IMG/VR virus record: IMGVR_UViG_3300027730_000106
Span: 1 to 29,007 of that record
Direction: 5' to 3' (one strand)
From: a virus
Length of the DNA: 29,007 nt
Part shown: positions 2,786-11,220 of the stretch, one piece after another
How the letters are laid out: each line of letters opens with the position of its first letter
How positions within the stretch are numbered: position 1 is the first letter of the stretch
Position numbers and translations under genes: made by a program
The notes under the pieces: model-generated
Told to the model about the DNA's origin: nothing
Seen by the model: the letters and a program-made list of their open reading frames with translations, nothing else
The model's database searches: none

Positions 2786-2948
2786 ACTTAAGGTTGAGTT
2801 AAATACAGATCATATTGCAGTTATTAAAAAACAATACAAAGAAGTTAAAAAGTATATGCGTTCTCCCATCTATCAAATTCGTGTTATGGATGGGAAAGAA
2901 AAGATTGTAAATGAACTTCTTGATAAATACTACCAGGAAGAACTGTAA
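2742..2948 (+). CDS. Conserved small cyanophage protein, unknown
   Basis: A 68-residue charged helical protein with the striking stretch KKYMRSPIYQIRVMDGKEKI. I recall similar small proteins in other T4-like cyanophages, without a function. ATG 2742 is chosen because the sequence from there looks protein-like (GKNHLAKPTKDEGEL); ATG 2718 is an alternative giving 8 more residues that overlap more of the previous gene. It lies 7 bases before the next start. No motif for enzymatic activity or membrane insertion. Confidence 0.65.
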   Translation: MGKNHLAKPTKDEGELKVELNTDHIAVIKKQYKEVKKYMRSPIYQIRVMDGKEKIVNELLDKYYQEEL

Positions 2949-2955
2949 TTGCGGC

Positions 2956-4023
2956 ATGAAAACTTTTAAGGAATTTATTTTTGAAGAGAACGCAAATAAA
3001 ATTGTACAGTTTAAAAGAAAACTTGCTGGGGCAACTGACCCTGCAGAATCTGAAAGGTTAAAGAAATTAATTGCTGATGCTGAACTTCAAAGTAAACAAT
3101 TAAAAACACCAGAGGTTCCAAAAAAAGCAGGACCAGGAACTCGCGCTGGTGGTTCTAACCAAGTAATTCCTGGTCAACCAAACGTATCTAAAATTCCAAC
3201 ACCAATCAGACAATTGGGAGGATTGGTTATACCTGCTCTTAACGTTGCAGGCGCAGCATATGATACTTATACAGGAACACAAGAACGTCAAGCAAAGGGT
3301 GAGAGATTGAGAACTGCTATTCCAAAATCTGCGGCTGAAGCAGGTGGGGGTGTAGCAGGAGCAACTACCGCAGCAACATTAGCATCAAGAGTTCTTCCTA
3401 AAAACCCACTGGCTCAAATTGGCGGATCTCTTATCGCTGGTACTCTCGGTTATTATGGAGGTAGAACAGCAGTTAGTGATGTTCTTAAAAAAATAGAAGG
3501 TAATGACAGTGATAAAGAATTAGAAAAAAAAGTTCAGAATTATGGTGTACGAAAAGCAAGATCTGGAATGGCGGCATCAAATGTTTATGGTGCTACCAAA
3601 GGTTCTGCATTAACAGGACTTGGTGGTTCAACAAAAGTTGATACTAAAGCAGGTACTTTAACTACTAAAGATAAAACTGTTAAACTTGCATCAACACAAC
3701 TAGTCCGTGATCCTACAACAGGGCAACAGCGTGTAGGAGATCTTGCATATAGAGGTGGTAAAGCAACTTATCTTGCTAGACCATCTACTGCGTCTAGAGA
3801 TTCTAGTGCTTCTCCTGGTGGTGCCTGGAGAAATCTTCAACGGGGTTTAAATTTTGGTGGTCAGAGAGAAAGGGATCAAGCAGCAGCAAAAACTGAATAC
3901 CGAACAGCATTGAAAAATACTCAAACATACAATAAAGGATTGGGTATCACTACCAAATCAGCAACAGCACAAAATCTTCCTGGATATGGAACTGCTCCTG
4001 TAGTAAAACCAAAATCCAAATAA
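2956..4023 (+). CDS. Predicted internal head protein with T4-type capsid-targeting sequence
   Basis: A 355-residue protein starting MKTFKEFIFE. T4 internal proteins begin MKTYQEFIAE, a sequence that directs them into the prohead and is removed by the gp21 protease after an (I/L)xE site; here IFE would be the cleavage site after residue 10. Behind it come a basic charged part (residues 15-50), a Pro/Gly linker, two hydrophobic Ala/Gly stretches (LGGLVIPALNVAGAAYDTYTG, about 85-105, and a longer one about 125-175 with TTAATLASR and GGSLIAGTLGYYGG), and a Gly/Ser/Thr-rich C-terminal half. I infer packaging inside the head and ejection with DNA; the Gly-rich segments could insert into a membrane. 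The frame is open up to 2911, but the motif decides for ATG 2956. Confidence 0.7.
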   Translation: MKTFKEFIFEENANKIVQFKRKLAGATDPAESERLKKLIADAELQSKQLKTPEVPKKAGPGTRAGGSNQVIPGQPNVSKIPTPIRQLGGLVIPALNVAGAAYDTYTGTQERQAKGERLRTAIPKSAAEAGGGVAGATTAATLASRVLPKNPLAQIGGSLIAGTLGYYGGRTAVSDVLKKIEGNDSDKELEKKVQNYGVRKARSGMAASNVYGATKGSALTGLGGSTKVDTKAGTLTTKDKTVKLASTQLVRDPTTGQQRVGDLAYRGGKATYLARPSTASRDSSASPGGAWRNLQRGLNFGGQRERDQAAAKTEYRTALKNTQTYNKGLGITTKSATAQNLPGYGTAPVVKPKSK

Positions 4024-4026
4024 ATA
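4019..4026 (+). promoter_or_regulatory. Possible late promoter (AATAAATA)
   Basis: One mismatch to the T4 late octamer, overlapping the stop codon of the upstream gene and 22 bases before ATG 4049. It would fit late expression of a virion protein. Weak alone. Confidence 0.35.
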
Positions 4027-4048: not shown

Positions 4049-4948
4049 ATGAGTAATCCCTGGACAGAACCATATAAAGAGTTTAGAGAAGAAACAGTTC
4101 TTTCAAAAAAAGATGGTGTGGAGGGTAAACTTGATAAAGTAACTGGTAAATTTACACCCACTCCATTTAGTGCTGAAGATAAAGAGCGTTATGTAAAAAA
4201 TACATCGCCTACAGCACCAATTTTACCACCACCATCTTCATCTGGATCTGTTGCTCCTGTCAGTGCTCCGATTCTTCAACCAAAACCACAGAGACCAATT
4301 CCTACAAATGCATCTCCTGTAACAACATCAACAGCAAATAAGATTAAAGGTGGTTTAAGTAATTATCAATCACAAGTAAAGTCTGGTGATGTTAAAGGTG
4401 CAGAAGAAACAGGAAGATCAACTTTTGCGCTTGCTAATCCAAAACTTGCAGCTGCCCAAGCAGAAAGAGATCGCACCAGAGGAACTTCTCAAACTGATAA
4501 TCCTTTGATGAAGGATATAAAAGATAGAATGCCTATGACTCCTTCAGTTCAAAGTCCAACTCTTGCAACAGATTTGGGAAAAGGTTCTGGAAATCAAAAT
4601 TTATTGGACAATCCTAATGCTTCAATTGGTGCAAAACCAAAACCGGAAATGACTCAAGCAACTAAAACTAAAGTTGCTTTTAGTAACCCTTCATTATTAA
4701 GTCAAACTCTTAAAAAAGAAGAAACTGTAATTACAAGATATCTAGTTAGTCAAGGTTACATATCAGAGAAGAATGATCTTCCTGGTAATCAAGAAAGAAT
4801 TGATGCCAATAAAAATGGTAAAATTGATTCTAATGATTTTAAACTTCTTCGTAATGGAGCAAAAAAAGTAGCAAAAACTGCTGGAGATGTAGTAAAATCC
4901 ACTTTTAGTGGTGAACCTGGAAACGTAGGAAATGTGACAAAGGTCTGA
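4049..4948 (+). CDS. Pro/Ser-rich protein with an EF-hand-like loop
   Basis: A 299-residue protein, mostly low complexity: an N-terminal part MSNPWTEPYKEF, a Pro/Ser/Thr-rich linker (about 50-95), then Lys/Thr/Asn-rich stretches. Near the C-terminus (about 250-265) lies DANKNGKIDSNDF, which fits the EF-hand or dockerin calcium loop (D-x-N-x-N-G-x-I-D-x-x-D). It is directly downstream of the predicted internal head protein, with a late-type octamer between them, so a virion role is plausible but unproven. It ends just before the terminator-promoter element at 4970-5018. No catalytic motif is seen. Confidence 0.68.
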   Translation: MSNPWTEPYKEFREETVLSKKDGVEGKLDKVTGKFTPTPFSAEDKERYVKNTSPTAPILPPPSSSGSVAPVSAPILQPKPQRPIPTNASPVTTSTANKIKGGLSNYQSQVKSGDVKGAEETGRSTFALANPKLAAAQAERDRTRGTSQTDNPLMKDIKDRMPMTPSVQSPTLATDLGKGSGNQNLLDNPNASIGAKPKPEMTQATKTKVAFSNPSLLSQTLKKEETVITRYLVSQGYISEKNDLPGNQERIDANKNGKIDSNDFKLLRNGAKKVAKTAGDVVKSTFSGEPGNVGNVTKV

Positions 4949-4969: not shown

Positions 4970-4998
4970 TTGACAAATCTTAGTCCCTGGTCTATAAT
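4970..4998 (+). promoter_or_regulatory. Consensus sigma70 (early) promoter for thyX
   Basis: TTGACA at 4970-4975 and TATAAT at 4993-4998 are separated by exactly 17 bases, a perfect match to the bacterial sigma70 consensus. Transcription would start near 5005, about 30 bases before the thyX ATG. It probably serves the run thyX to gp59. Confidence 0.85.
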
Positions 4999-6759: not shown

Positions 6760-7430
6760 TGTTTAATCATGTAAATCATTTAGGTGATATTGACCTAAAA
6801 TCAAGAGAAATAGAAGGAACTCGTTTCTATACGACACCATCTGGCGATTCTTTCCCATCAATAACTTCAGTCACATCTCATAAAAATAGAGAATTCTTTA
6901 TTGGATGGCGTGAACGAGTTGGTGAGGAAGAAGCAAACAAAATTTGTAAACTTGCAACCACTCGTGGAACAAAATTTCATGAAGTATGTCAGGATTACTT
7001 AGAAAATAAGTTGAAAGAAAGTTATGATGAACAGTCTATGTTTATGTTTGATGCTGTTAAGCCTTATCTAGATAAGATTGGTTTAGTTCATGCAATTGAA
7101 AGATCAATGTTTAGTGAAGTTCTTGGCATTGCTGGACGAGTAGATTGTATTGCTGAGTATGATGGTGAACTTGCTGTTATTGATTTCAAAACTTCTACTA
7201 AAATTAAAAGAGAAGAATGGATTGAACAATACTTTGTTCAGGAAGTTGCATATGCATGTATGTACTTTGAATTAACTGGAATTCCAGTTAAGAAATTGAT
7301 TACGATTATGGTAACTCCTGCTGGATCTGTTAAAATATTTGACAAAAGAGATAAAATGTATTATATTAAACTATTAACCGGATACATTAAGGAATTTGTC
7401 TCTGATAAGTTAAAAGTTTATGGAAAATGA
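6759..7430 (+). CDS. PD-(D/E)XK superfamily exonuclease
   Basis: A 223-residue protein with a RecB/Cas4-type nuclease core: RGTKFHEVCQDYL (an early conserved His), then GIAGRVDCIAEYDGELAVIDFKTSTK, in which the D of GRVD and the DFK triplet form the metal-binding PD-(D/E)XK site, followed by a helix with QEVAYA (conserved Q-Y motif). Closest family by eye is the MGME1-like single-strand exonuclease group. It lies between phoH and gp33 in the replication run, so a part in DNA processing or host DNA breakdown is likely; the exact substrate is unknown. ATG 6759 overlaps the phoH stop by one base. Confidence 0.85.
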   Translation: MFNHVNHLGDIDLKSREIEGTRFYTTPSGDSFPSITSVTSHKNREFFIGWRERVGEEEANKICKLATTRGTKFHEVCQDYLENKLKESYDEQSMFMFDAVKPYLDKIGLVHAIERSMFSEVLGIAGRVDCIAEYDGELAVIDFKTSTKIKREEWIEQYFVQEVAYACMYFELTGIPVKKLITIMVTPAGSVKIFDKRDKMYYIKLLTGYIKEFVSDKLKVYGK

Positions 7431-7674
7431 AATTGAAAGTGCTTTAAAGGATAAATTTATGAGTCAAGCAAAATTTTCTTCGGAGATTGAAACTCTTGTA
7501 GAGTCGAGTAGATTAAGTTACATTGAATCTATAGTTCATTATTGCAAAGAAAATAGTATTGAAATAGATACTGTTTCAAAGTTGATTTCTAAACCATTAA
7601 AAGAAAGAATTAGGTGTGAAGCAATTACATTGAATTATTTGAAAAAAACTACTAAAGCTAAACTACCAATATGA
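7420..7674 (+). CDS. 33: gp33 late-transcription co-activator
   Basis: An 84-residue helical protein resembling T4 gp33: FSSEIETLVESSRLSYIESI parallels T4 residues around FIIEKMVEEFGMSYLEA, followed by YCKENSIE (T4: FLEENSIP), K.IS and a final helix with EA...N.L. gp33 links RNA polymerase and the gp45 sliding clamp at late promoters together with the sigma factor gp55. The T4 protein is longer (112 residues) and ends in a flap-binding tail LDFLL; here the end is KAKLPI, so that contact differs. It overlaps the nuclease gene by 11 bases and gp59 by 4 (ATGA). Confidence 0.8.
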   Translation: MENEIESALKDKFMSQAKFSSEIETLVESSRLSYIESIVHYCKENSIEIDTVSKLISKPLKERIRCEAITLNYLKKTTKAKLPI

Positions 7675-8273
7675 CACCGTTTGAGGTGTATTGTTGTTAC
7701 TTATCTCTCAAAAATCATTTTACAAAAAAATCATATGATTATTTTAAATATAGTGGAAAGACTAGAACTACAATAAAGTCCTTTAATAAAAGAAAGGATA
7801 AGTACTTTTTTGAAAAAACTTCTAGACACAAAAATGATAATGAGATATTGCAATATCTTGTTTCTAACTTTATCGAATGCTCTGATCCTCAACGATTGTG
7901 GATTGGAGAAATTATACATTCGGGGGAAACAAATTATACTAATTGGAAAAAAAGAAATCAAAGTTTAACTTACATATTTAAAAATGAAACTGAAGAATTA
8001 TTTTCTGAAAATTCTTTAGATGCAATTTTTGAGTGTAAGAATGGATCTCATCCTATCATACTTAAAAATTTCCTGAGTGGGAAAATTAGTATCGAAACAC
8101 TGGTCATATACCATAGAATATTCCTGTTCGGGAACACGTTTGATAGCAAACTGTTAGACCCAGTATGGGAATCAGTCAGTCTTAAAATTCAAAAATATTC
8201 ACCTTTTCTAAATATTTCGACAGGTGAATACAAAAAAATAATTCGTGATCAGGTCTTGACACCTGAGCAGTAA
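7671..8273 (+). CDS. 59: gp59 helicase loader
   Basis: gp59 loads the gp41 replicative helicase onto gp32-coated forked DNA. The 200-residue length is close to T4's 217. Matches to T4 gp59 recalled from memory include a YxLYL-like start (FEVYCCYLSLKNHF), a basic segment ending KRKDKYFFEKTS (T4: RRDKYFFQKLS), the WIGEI motif (T4: WIGDI), and a C-terminal domain with VWESVSLKIQKYSPFLNI. It begins in ATGA overlap with gp33. Its last codons contain the -35 box of the gp32 promoter. The gp33-gp59-gp32 order matches T4 linkage. Confidence 0.92.
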   Translation: MTPFEVYCCYLSLKNHFTKKSYDYFKYSGKTRTTIKSFNKRKDKYFFEKTSRHKNDNEILQYLVSNFIECSDPQRLWIGEIIHSGETNYTNWKKRNQSLTYIFKNETEELFSENSLDAIFECKNGSHPIILKNFLSGKISIETLVIYHRIFLFGNTFDSKLLDPVWESVSLKIQKYSPFLNISTGEYKKIIRDQVLTPEQ

Positions 8274-8284
8274 CCTGTTAGAAT
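8256..8284 (+). promoter_or_regulatory. Sigma70-type promoter for gp32
   Basis: TTGACA (8256-8261), a 17-base spacer and TAGAAT (8279-8284, one mismatch to TATAAT). The element overlaps the end of gp59; the start of transcription would be near 8291, about 35 bases before the gp32 ATG. The -35 box sits inside a short inverted repeat CAGGT/ACCTG. Confidence 0.78.
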
Positions 8285-8294
8285 AAACAAGTAA

Positions 8295-8312
8295 ACACAT
8301 CGTACACATCGT
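8295..8312 (+). repeat. Tandem 9-bp repeat in gp32 leader
   Basis: ACACATCGT occurs twice in direct tandem, covering almost all the leader between the predicted transcription start and the ribosome binding site CGGAG (8316-8320). It could be part of a translational operator, since T4 gp32 represses its own mRNA; this is inference. Confidence 0.6.
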
Positions 8313-8325
8313 ATACGGAGAACAC

Positions 8326-9195
8326 ATGTCTTTTGCTGAACTTAAAAAGCAATCTCGTCTAGGCAATCTTACTGCCAAACTGGTCAAAGAAGTTGAAAAA
8401 ATGAACAAGACCAGTTCAATGGGGGATGATCGCTTTTGGAAGATTGAACGCGATAAATCTGGTAATGGTTATGCAGTAATTCGCTTTCTTCCTTCCCCCC
8501 AAGGTGAAGATGATCCTTACGTGCAAGTTTGGAGTCATGCATTTCAAGGGCCTGGAGGATGGTATATTGAAAACTCTCTGACAACTCTTGGGGGTAAAGA
8601 TCCTCTAGGAGAACTTAACACACAACTATGGGCAACAGGAAATAAATCTGATCAAGAAGTTGTTCGTAGTCGTAAACGTAAATTGACATATTTTTCAAAT
8701 ATTTACGTTGTAAAGGATCCTGCTCATCCTGAGAATGAGGGAAAGGTGTTCATATTTAAATACGGTAAGAAAATCTTTGAGAAGATCTCAAGTGCCCTAA
8801 AACCTGAATTTGAGGATGAATCTCCTATTGATGCATTTGATCTTTGGACTGGTGCTAACTTCAAACTTAAAGTTCGCATGGCAGATGGTTATCCAAACTA
8901 TGACAAGTCTGAATTTGAGACGCCATCTGTTCTAGGTGGGTTTGAGGATGAGGATCTTGAAGAACTTTGGAAGAAGTGTAATTCTCTTAAGGAGTTTGTA
9001 AGTCCAGAAAACTTCAAGTCTTATGATCAATTGAAGACTCGTCTTGATACTGTTTTAGGAACCAAAAGAACTCCAGTTGTTAAAACTGATGAATCTTTTG
9101 AAAGTGAAGATGTGTTAAGTGCCCCTACAAGCACATCTGATGATGAGGAAGAAGATGATACGCTTTCATATTTCCAGAAACTTGCTGAAGAGTAA
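8326..9195 (+). CDS. 32: gp32 single-stranded DNA-binding protein
   Basis: gp32 coats single-stranded DNA in replication, recombination and repair and recruits gp59 and UvsY. The 289-residue protein has the T4 layout: a basic LAST-type N-terminus (LKKQSRLGNLTAKL) for cooperative binding, a core with FWKIERDKSGNGYAVIRFLP, WYIEN, TYFSNIYVVKDPAHPENEGK and VFIFKYGKKIFEKI, and an acidic tail (SDDEEEDDTLSYF) for partner binding. The zinc ligands of T4 gp32 (H64, C77, C87, C90) are absent: the stretch after WYIEN has no Cys, so the core seems zinc-free. The ATG is preceded by CGGAG. Confidence 0.97.
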   Translation: MSFAELKKQSRLGNLTAKLVKEVEKMNKTSSMGDDRFWKIERDKSGNGYAVIRFLPSPQGEDDPYVQVWSHAFQGPGGWYIENSLTTLGGKDPLGELNTQLWATGNKSDQEVVRSRKRKLTYFSNIYVVKDPAHPENEGKVFIFKYGKKIFEKISSALKPEFEDESPIDAFDLWTGANFKLKVRMADGYPNYDKSEFETPSVLGGFEDEDLEELWKKCNSLKEFVSPENFKSYDQLKTRLDTVLGTKRTPVVKTDESFESEDVLSAPTSTSDDEEEDDTLSYFQKLAEE

Positions 9196-9218
9196 TTTCA
9201 AAATAGGTTTTTAAAACC

Positions 9219-9253
9219 AAAAATGGTGGGAAAAATATTCCCGCCATTTTTTT
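9219..9253. terminator. Bidirectional terminator between gp32 and gp53
   Basis: AAAAATGGTGGGAA pairs with TTCCCGCCATTTTT (14 bp, one T-G wobble, 5-base loop), with an A run on one side and T run on the other. It can stop transcripts from both converging directions. Confidence 0.9.
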
Positions 9254-9266
9254 GTCTGTAGGTTTT

Positions 9267-9911
9267 TTAGGAAAATCTAGGATTATAAGTCTTAATAGTT
9301 TTCTGATCTACAAATTCAGAAGATTGCTCGTATTTAAATATTCTCTTAAGATCTTTCTCTACAACTTTTACAAATTCTGGTCTTAAAATAATAATATTTC
9401 TTTTTTCTTCATTTAAGTAATTTTCATAATCAAAGTTACTTACGGATAACAAGGATGAGTATGTTGTTGTTGCTCCAGAATCATTATATCTAAAAGTGAA
9501 ATTTGAATCTACTATCAATTTTCCGGGTAACACCAATTCACCTAAAGAATTTCTTACTTCTCTAGTTTCATAGTGATGAATTTCTACTAATTGTTGATCT
9601 GTATATTTTTCTGTTAGAAATTTACTCAAATCAGATTGGGACATGGGCCAATCTGTTCTTACATTCTGTATATTATTGGTTATAAGAATTAACCAATCAT
9701 ACTGAGAATCATTGTATATCTTCTCGGATACACTATCCGGTCTTTCATCACCCACAATTGAATATTTTTCAAATGCAGTGAATACATTTAAAAAATCATC
9801 ACGTAACTTTGCTCGTTTGAACAAATTTTTAATTTTTATATAATCAAAAGAGGATATATCCTTTTTTAATGATGGGTATAATACATCGGGTAATCTTTTG
9901 AAGTATGCCAT
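9267..9911 (-). CDS. 53: gp53 baseplate wedge subunit
   Basis: A 214-residue protein of the outer baseplate wedge, the part that lets six wedges join around the hub. The N-terminal region matches the gp53/LysM-like family: YFKRLPDVLYP, then RDDFLNVFTAFEKYSIVGDERPDSVSEKIYNDSQYDWLILITNNI, in which RPD...A..IYG...YWVLLM.N is the T4 pattern. It is the last gene of the minus-strand block and ends 13 bases from the two-way terminator. It starts one base after the gp48 stop, indicating coupling. Confidence 0.9.
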   Translation of the reverse strand: MAYFKRLPDVLYPSLKKDISSFDYIKIKNLFKRAKLRDDFLNVFTAFEKYSIVGDERPDSVSEKIYNDSQYDWLILITNNIQNVRTDWPMSQSDLSKFLTEKYTDQQLVEIHHYETREVRNSLGELVLPGKLIVDSNFTFRYNDSGATTTYSSLLSVSNFDYENYLNEEKRNIIILRPEFVKVVEKDLKRIFKYEQSSEFVDQKTIKTYNPRFS

Positions 9912-9912
9912 A

Positions 9913-11220
9913 TCAGTATCCTACGTCGTCCTCATCTGGGAATGCTTCTTCCATTTCATTTCTAAAGAGTGGAGTAAGTTCTGCAAATTGCATAACCATT
10001 GATGTTGAAACTGGATGAGAATCTTCATATGCCGCCCATCCCATTCCATCTGGAGTATGATCAATTCCAAAGTTTACTAGGGCACAAATTTTTGGTTGTG
10101 GTAGTGATTTAATTCTTGTATCACCATTCATGTACCGAATGAAAAATACGTTGGGACTGTTAATTAGATTGGAATTTTCTCCTACTGTTGGCAAACATTG
10201 CAATTTCATAAATTTTATAATTTGACGAATTCTTTTTGCATCCTCAGCACTACGACAAGCAAATTTCCATGCAAATTCAAATTCTCTCATGTTTGGACCT
10301 CTAAAAAGAAGTTCCATATTGGGGTTAGAAACTTTACCTGTTGTTCTTGCTAAAATATCACTAGGTTCTATTCCTGTCAAACCAACTGATCCAAGAAAGG
10401 AAGATGAAAGAGATGCTGCTAATATTTCACGATACTCAGCACCACCTGCCCCCAAAAAAGTACCAGACTTTGTTAATGCATCCATAATTTGTTGAAATGC
10501 TTCTCCTGGGTTCCCTCCAGCCGCTGTTATTGCTGGGGCTGCTACAGTACCAACTGCTGCTGCCATGATAGGACTCATTTTTGTCATACTCCAACTAGCA
10601 GATGAGCTATCTTTTACTGCTGTTGGAATTGGGAGAATTATCTCACCCTCATACTCATAGTCTGGTGGTGGCAAATTTGCATTTGCAGATTTAATACCAT
10701 CTTGCACAACAGAAGTAAATCCTTCTTGAGTTCCTCCTTGAGGTGCTTTATATTTTAATGCTCTTATACGAATATGATCTTGAGAACCTGTCCCACTATA
10801 TTGCATATCGACTGGAAATGGGTAAACTTTCCCAGTATTAGTTCCAGATCTATTACTTAAAGTTTTTGGATCAAATGCAGCATTTGCTGCAGGAATTTCA
10901 TTGGTTGTAGATGTTGGAGTTCCTGTTGCAGATTTTTTTATATTTTGATTATAAGCCGGTTCTGCAACAACACCTTGAAGAGTTTTTGTAGATTTTGCTG
11001 CTGTAAGTGCTGCATTAATTTTTGTTGCACTTGTTGTGTTTTGAGAAACCGTAACTGCTTGAGAATGTGTTAGAAAAGTTCCATCTGCGTTTTGTGCAGT
11101 TGTAATAAAACCAACATCAGATCCAGATTTTGAAATGGTTACCTTCCCACCAGTTCCCTTAGGGGTGGTTATTCCCCCAACAGGTATAGTTGTATTTTTA
11201 ATTTGAGTCTGACTTGTCAT
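9913..11220 (-). CDS. 48: gp48 baseplate tail-tube cap
   Basis: gp48 sits on the baseplate hub with gp54 and starts tail-tube growth. The 435-residue protein is longer than T4 gp48 (364). Its first 160 residues are Thr/Ser/Gly-rich and probably flexible. The C-terminal part carries the tube-like fold: MREFEFAWKFACRSAEDAKRI, a typical start of the pairing domain, then SPNVFFIRYMNGD and PKICALVNFGIDHTPDG, and VSTSMVMQFAELTPLFR, matching the T4 series (PCQIQSIRFDKTPNG and TLEITMREI). A GATAAATA late-type octamer precedes it at 11244-11251 on the minus strand. Assignment to gp48 rather than gp54 rests on a better gp54 candidate at 12252. Confidence 0.82.
   Translation of the reverse strand: MTSQTQIKNTTIPVGGITTPKGTGGKVTISKSGSDVGFITTAQNADGTFLTHSQAVTVSQNTTSATKINAALTAAKSTKTLQGVVAEPAYNQNIKKSATGTPTSTTNEIPAANAAFDPKTLSNRSGTNTGKVYPFPVDMQYSGTGSQDHIRIRALKYKAPQGGTQEGFTSVVQDGIKSANANLPPPDYEYEGEIILPIPTAVKDSSSASWSMTKMSPIMAAAVGTVAAPAITAAGGNPGEAFQQIMDALTKSGTFLGAGGAEYREILAASLSSSFLGSVGLTGIEPSDILARTTGKVSNPNMELLFRGPNMREFEFAWKFACRSAEDAKRIRQIIKFMKLQCLPTVGENSNLINSPNVFFIRYMNGDTRIKSLPQPKICALVNFGIDHTPDGMGWAAYEDSHPVSTSMVMQFAELTPLFRNEMEEAFPDEDDVGY

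Follow-up and report, generated by a model that had tools for sequence, protein, structure and literature searches.

A freshwater T4-like cyanophage encodes a candidate internal head protein with a probable T4-type capsid-targeting sequence at its N terminus

The capsid-targeting tag and the use made of it are known from bacteriophage T4. IPII and IPIII, described as basic proteins (PMC9026906), carry the ten-residue tag MKTYQEFIAE, with FIxE at residues 7–10, whereas IPI starts MKTFKEFTSTTTPVSTITE and has its site moved to ITE at residues 17–19. The T4 internal proteins are basic, with about 300 copies each, and the T4 cleavage motif is L/I-X-E; mutations show that tag residues 4 and 7 govern targeting and residues 8 and 10 processing (PMC9026906). 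Ip1–3 inhibit GmrSD nucleases, which are type IV restriction enzymes (PMC12373910). It has already been suggested that the tag lets T4-like phages load various proteins (PMC9026906). In cyanophages, enzymes have been found recurrently in virions, and the authors could not tell them from contaminants (PMC9602691).

The DNA analysed here (the window) comes from a virus record, as a fragment of 29,007 bases. Its gene order (speD, glutaredoxin, DUF6433 protein, tagged ORF, second ORF, thyX, phoH, exonuclease, gp33, gp59, gp32 and baseplate genes) is that of freshwater T4-like cyanophages, and by its relatives the source phage is one of these, in the Kyanoviridae. The features considered are the following.

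2922..2929, + strand: T4-late-type promoter motif GATAAATA, whose ATAAATA begins 33 nt before the ATG, within the end of the preceding ORF (motif search).
2956..4023, + strand: ORF for a candidate internal head protein of 355 residues, net charge +29 (ORF calling, alignment, charge computation).
2956..2985, + strand: capsid-targeting sequence MKTFKEFIFE, with a predicted cut after Glu10 (between 2985 and 2986) that would leave the mature N terminus ENANKIVQ (alignment).
3205..3495, + strand: residues 84–180, Gly/Ala-rich and weakly hydrophobic, modelled with low confidence as helical; a region present in the family but with little sequence conservation (alignment, hydropathy, model).
3541..3990, + strand: residues 196–345, conserved C-terminal region of about six strands then helices in a low-confidence model, with no fold match outside the family (alignment, model, Foldseek).
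4020..4026, + strand: second late-type motif ATAAATA, 29 nt upstream of the next ORF (motif search).
4049..4948, + strand: downstream ORF of 299 residues with no clear tag (MSNPWTEPYKEFREE) (homologue comparison).

The tagged ORF has its ATG at 2956, and positions 2956–2985 translate to MKTFKEFIFE. ORF calling also gives a longer frame from an in-frame ATG at 2911; the start was set at 2956 because a stop codon lies immediately 5' of the Met of MKTYREFVAE in the DSL-LC02 homologue. The initial annotation had described few differences from the T4 propeptide and a retained (I/L)xE site for gp21. Indeed, the tag differs from MKTYQEFIAE (NC_000866) at residues 4 (F/Y), 5 (K/Q) and 9 (F/A), and the site is present as Ile8-Phe9-Glu10. 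Residues 1–7, MKTFKEF, are identical to those of IPI, in which a cleavage-type site also closes the propeptide. Since that site stands at residues 17–19 in IPI and at 8–10 in IPII and IPIII, the window tag pairs IPI's residues 1–7 with a site placed as in IPIII. Residue 11 is Glu; Ala and Ser are commoner there among tagged proteins, which counts against the cleavage reading. Similarity to IPII and IPIII is limited to the tag, and the mature part is unrelated to that of IPI, a protein of 95 residues as against 355. The annotation's view that the rest of the protein is unlike T4 internal proteins also held: Pfam, PHROGs, NCBIfam and PDB sequence searches gave no match at E 1e-3, nor did PADLOC give a significant one, and T4 is absent from the tblastn matches (E up to 10).

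Among named phages, tblastn found relatives in DSL-LC02, DSL-LC03 and S-SRM01 (the last counted once although it has two records; a fifth match, to a microvirus, had E 6 and was discarded), and searches of viral_contigs gave 5 loci and later 10. With L004–L006 merged, as their protein is identical, and L002 and L262 left out, as they are cut at their 5' ends, there are 15 distinct proteins whose N terminus is complete. All 15 start with MK[TS][FY]..F[ILV].E (for example MKTFKEFISE, MKTYREFVAE, MKTFSQFLLE, MKTFSQFINE and MKSFSQFLEE): position 4 is Phe or Tyr, Phe7 is found in all, residue 8 is Ile, Leu or Val, and Glu10 is invariant. Some members were found with the help of the tag, which was one of the search peptides; the seven that can be found without it (DSL-LC02, DSL-LC03, S-SRM01, L004, L259, L260 and L261) all carry it. 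An alignment of 12 members, which leaves out DSL-LC02 (Tyr4), has 22 invariant columns in the whole protein, including M1, K2, F4, F7 and E10, and in a second set of six the invariant columns include M1, K2, F7 and E10. From the end of the tag to around residue 195 there is hardly any alignment between members, the roughly 180 residues that follow the tag being divergent. The tag positions that are conserved, 4, 7, 8 and 10, are those important in T4 (PMC9026906).

The homologues in S-SRM01 (PQC13_gp270), DSL-LC02 (WJZ48284.1) and DSL-LC03 (WJZ47875.1) share with the window protein the C-terminal-region homology, the type of tag and the late motif; they differ in their variable N-terminal halves and are annotated only as hypothetical proteins. 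Family genes occupy two genomic addresses, one between the DUF6433 gene and thyX (the window, L003, L004, L264 and DSL-LC02/03, with L257 cut off on the DUF6433 side) and one downstream of nrdB (L256, L258, L263, L265 and S-SRM01). Tag and late motif are kept at both.

Late expression of the family is supported by this promoter motif. ATAAATA lies at −25 to −34 in 15/15 members, after T, G or A, and is found 15–45 nt upstream of 22/159 ORFs in DSL-LC02 and 16/156 in DSL-LC03 (ORFs of at least 100 residues; 38/315 together). Across the window the motif is in no clear excess (13 against 10.3 expected on the + strand, 2 against 6.9 on the − strand), and so only its position relative to starts was used as evidence.

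Cleavage of the tag would call for a gp21-type protease. An S77 protease of this type was found in 22 of 28 long records, 21 of them above the Pfam cut-off; the 28 are 25 IMG/VR records with a match to the tag pattern plus DSL-LC02, DSL-LC03 and S-SRM01. It is present in these three carriers of the family, the window itself being only a 29-kb fragment, and the six records lacking it are 81–132 kb long and may be incomplete. In the major capsid protein gp23, GFLSE-A in DSL-LC03 and GILTE-A in S-SZBM1 sit at the place of T4 SFLTE-A; cyanophages therefore probably use the same type of cleavage site, and from sequence position we infer cuts in gp23 at both.

The tag is not confined to this family. 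An IUPAC pattern for MKT[FY][KQE][QE]FIxE, which in T4 as positive control matches ipII, ipIII, gp61.1 and nothing else, matched at least 120 stretches in viral_contigs; a codon-permuted control of equal degeneracy matched none there, and the tag pattern matched once in genome_contigs (257 Gb of bacterial genomes). Hence, its occurrence is not due to chance. The initial annotation had proposed listing the proteins that share the tag and, run as a pattern, this yielded about 100 dissimilar viral proteins among the matches listed: 154 complete proteins of at least 70 residues with MKT[FY]..F[ILMVF].E reduce to 102 with little 4-mer sharing. In an alignment of the 102 only M1, K2, T3, F7 and E10 are invariant, a result imposed by selection. 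Pfam assigns 21 families among these 102, including S-AdoMet_lyase (3), GNAT acetyltransferase (2), DPBB lytic transglycosylase (2) and, once each, ART-PolyVal, Acb1, a zeta-toxin-type kinase, glucosaminidase and CTP_transf_like. Some of the 102 correspond to PHROGs whose names are internal head protein or internal virion protein.

The cleavage site is enriched where it was not required by the search. Among 76 dissimilar proteins starting MKTFK[EQ]F, 31 have [ILMVF]xE at residues 8–10, compared with a mean of 1.5 and a maximum of 6 in shuffles. The other 45 lack the canonical site there, a point against the targeting-and-cleavage reading; 25 of them read F7-x-E9 and in 8 the site is shifted downstream. 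Such a shift can occur inside one family, as in MKTFKEFIQE-SSLSRIKSK and MKTFKEFCSQLDE-SSLSRIKSK.

Published virion proteomes of other cyanophages support this meaning of the tag. The consensus ^M.{1,3}[FYLW]..F[ILMVF].E was written from T4 positions 4, 7, 8 and 10; it replaced a strict MK[TSN] form that matched a single S-CREM2 ORF (P = 0.24). Of five versions tried on S-CREM2, the first was kept unchanged for S-SZBM1 and S-SCSM1. Its sensitivity is incomplete, since T4 IPI, with its shifted site, would be missed. In S-CREM2, where 52/219 ORFs were detected in virions (PMC10665884 Table 3), it picks out five ORFs, every one of them among those detected: SAM hydrolase, ORF13, an APH-like kinase, ORF136 and cytidylyltransferase. 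This gives P = 6.5e-4 (4.4e-5 once the 24 structural proteins are set aside; shuffling predicts 0.11 matches) in a test that was not blind, because the consensus was written after the N termini of the detected S-CREM2 proteins were known. In S-SZBM1 two annotated starts match, of a cytidylyltransferase that was detected and a 105-residue protein absent from the 30 listed (PMC9146016 Table 1), as does one unannotated frame. The two S-SCSM1 matches are an NMNAT labelled virion protein and a 106-residue protein not so labelled, the label applying to 48 CDS by our own count and to 45 in the paper (PMC9602691). Pooled over the three proteomes, of which the strongest was not blind, 7/9 tagged ORFs were detected compared with 130/719 ORFs overall (stratified P = 2.6e-4); S-SZBM1 and S-SCSM1 by themselves give 2/4, which is weak, both detected proteins being from one enzyme family.

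That enzyme family is tagged more widely. The S-SM1 cytidylyltransferase (T4-GC190), reported in virions (PMC3037559), starts MKKFSAFLNEA, and six of seven homologues sampled have a tag, the exception being Syn1, with a split 189-residue gene. The cytidylyltransferase or NMNAT proteins of S-SM1, S-CREM2, S-SZBM1 and S-SCSM1 carry consensus tags (MKKFSAFLNE, MKNFSSFLTE, MRFRQFIIE and MKSFLQFLKE, respectively), the same kind as that of the window protein, and are reported in purified virions for all four phages; they differ in having an enzyme domain after the tag and are unrelated to the window protein. For phages carrying the window-protein family we found no virion proteome, and no mass spectrometry is described in the available text of the paper on S-SRM01 (PMC8557907).

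The tagged proteins of S-SZBM1 and S-SCSM1 that went undetected in virions (SSZBM1_191 and SSCSM1_30, 2/2 proteomes encoding one) belong to one family of 105–109 residues (MKSFNQFLSESVTINGDFNG and similar), seen at S-SZBM1 122311–122628 (−), S-SCSM1 44215, DSL-LC02 155343 (−), DSL-LC03 118339 and in L032. Possibly these are core proteins that the head sheds as it matures. S-CREM2 ORF12 (7704–10313, −), a Cas9/Csn1-like nuclease detected in virions, has a tag-like FASFMAEA at residues 19–26 of the annotated protein rather than at its start; this may reflect a mis-annotated start or an internal tag.

The window protein has a net charge of +29, per residue the most positive among 17 measured proteins of the window, and in 12/12 family members the charge lies between +29 and +59, which resembles the basic character of the T4 internal proteins (PMC9026906). 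The Gly/Ala-rich hydrophobic stretches of the initial annotation are borne out in composition (12.1% Gly, 12.7% Ala) and less so in hydrophobicity, the best 19-residue hydropathy window reaching only 1.07. That value is below the threshold for a confident transmembrane helix. With peaks of 1.07–1.55 over 12 members, a transmembrane role for this part was not adopted. AlphaFold models are poor, with mean pLDDT of 53.8 for the whole protein and 60.9 for the C-terminal part. The sole Foldseek match is the S-SRM01 homologue in BFVD (E 9e-8), and against the PDB there was none at E 1e-3. The simplest reading is a DNA-associated internal protein.

We consider it highly probable that the window protein is targeted to the prohead and cut there. 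The ORF would be expressed late and yield a strongly basic internal head protein; Phe4 and Phe7 would bring it to the prohead core, and Ile8-Phe9-Glu10 would be the site at which the phage's gp21-type (S77) protease removes the tag. The mature protein, starting at Glu11, would stay with the DNA in the virion and, by analogy with T4 internal proteins, be ejected with it. Of what the initial annotation claimed, capsid targeting and gp21 cleavage are strongly supported by sequence, and ejection with an early role in the host is drawn from T4; that the protein is both ejected and active in the host is, by this analogy, slightly more likely than not.

That an ordinary early or structural protein should merely resemble tagged ones at its N terminus, by chance or without function, is very improbable: the motif is short and the evidence for the tag comes from sequence, yet the pattern controls, the conservation in the family, the enrichment of the cleavage site over shuffles and the late motif in 15/15 members all disfavour it. 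Also quite improbable is a real tag on a helper of the prohead core or scaffold that, like much of T4 gp22, gp67 and gp68, disappears or is degraded as the head matures and so never enters the host. Core proteins are cut and mostly removed (PMC9026906), and the undetected 105–106-residue tagged proteins would fit such a fate. However, core proteins are reported to be cut into several fragments, whereas the conserved site here is N-terminal, as in proteins that are retained once their propeptide has been removed; moreover, the family is accessory and sits at two genomic addresses, unlike a core gene, and a charge of +29 fits association with DNA.

Two further alternatives concern what the protein might do. 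After ejection, the Gly/Ala-rich region could insert into the cell envelope and help DNA entry as a pilot or channel, with no cytoplasmic target. Charge-free segments of at least 18 residues in 11/12 members, up to 46 in L263 and L264, would suit this, but membrane helices would be expected to reach a higher peak hydropathy, conservation lies in the C-terminal region and confidence in the model is low; we regard it as unlikely. A protein that condenses or protects DNA in the head, histone-like or anti-restriction as T4 IPI–III block type IV restriction enzymes, is a tentative possibility. Its charge per residue, the inhibition of GmrSD by Ip1–3 (PMC12373910) and the SAM lyase and Acb1 families among other tagged proteins speak for it; against it, neither sequence, domain nor fold searches matched an anti-restriction or DNA-binding family.

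As far as the open-licence literature shows, what is new is the window family as a tagged member, the evidence that the tag occurs widely among cyanophages and further T4-like viruses from the environment, and its presence on enzymes known from cyanophage virions. We found no paper there applying the capsid targeting sequence to cyanophage proteins; in the open-licence text searched, 'capsid targeting sequence' and 'cyanophage' coincide only in PMC9026906, the latter in a reference. It is likely, in our view, that all of the T4 superfamily, with the cyanophages, uses the tag as a general packaging signal for a swappable injected arsenal, and that the enzymes found in cyanophage virions are truly packaged and injected. 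On that reading the arsenal would include cytidylyltransferase/NMNAT, SAM lyase or hydrolase, kinases, an Acb1-type anti-CBASS protein, ADP-ribosyltransferase, acetyltransferases, a Cas9-like nuclease and families like that of the window protein. The virion-found enzymes start with the tag, and its apparent spread may explain how such viruses bring ready-made enzymes into cells. If the tag works as in T4, it provides a one-line test for phage proteins carried into the cell, sequence alone would suffice to list the proteins that abundant marine and freshwater phages inject, and the window protein would be one unexplored member of this arsenal.

Several other loci drew attention. L039, a 14-kb contig, has four tagged genes with unrelated bodies at 7000–9422 (−), as in a cargo gene cluster. 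T4 gp61.1 (NC_000866 18966–19130, −) has the tag MKTFKEFIKE and aligns to gp23 (alignment score 69, shuffle mean 20), and S-CREM2 ORF160 (L250), detected in virions, aligns to the major capsid protein of its own phage (score 95, 21 shuffled). With S-SCSM1 ORF97 (L286; AVGAGGFTGSSAAEGPTAGYDPLM), labelled virion protein, these are small proteins mimicking the mature N-terminal arm of their own major capsid protein. A second recurring N terminus, EAYxxVY followed by Glu-rich residues, is found on proteins adjoining the tagged family (L009 5797, L258 6772, L263 1469, L265 1876, DSL-LC03 84546–86342) and on S-SCSM1 ORF89, which has a start of this type (SLSEAYAAVYSNTVEE) and is labelled virion protein; it is possibly another head-targeting signal.

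Homologues of the downstream ORF at 4049–4948 adjoin the tagged-family gene in L003 and L257 and lie nearby in L256, and it is possible that the ORF encodes a second late cargo or core protein. A second tag at its start (MSNPWTEPYKEFREE) was rejected, the equivalent of position 8 being Arg and the homologues reading PYKDLRE. The ORF gives a weak match to a dockerin/EF-hand-like calcium loop (Pfam E 0.001, below the cut-off) and shares the block LAAAQAERDRTRGTSQTDNPLM with other Synechococcus phage proteins. Just 5' of thyX, at 4970–4998, TTGACA, 17 nt and TATAAT can be read by eye as a putative early promoter of sigma-70 type, which follows immediately on the two genes that carry late motifs.
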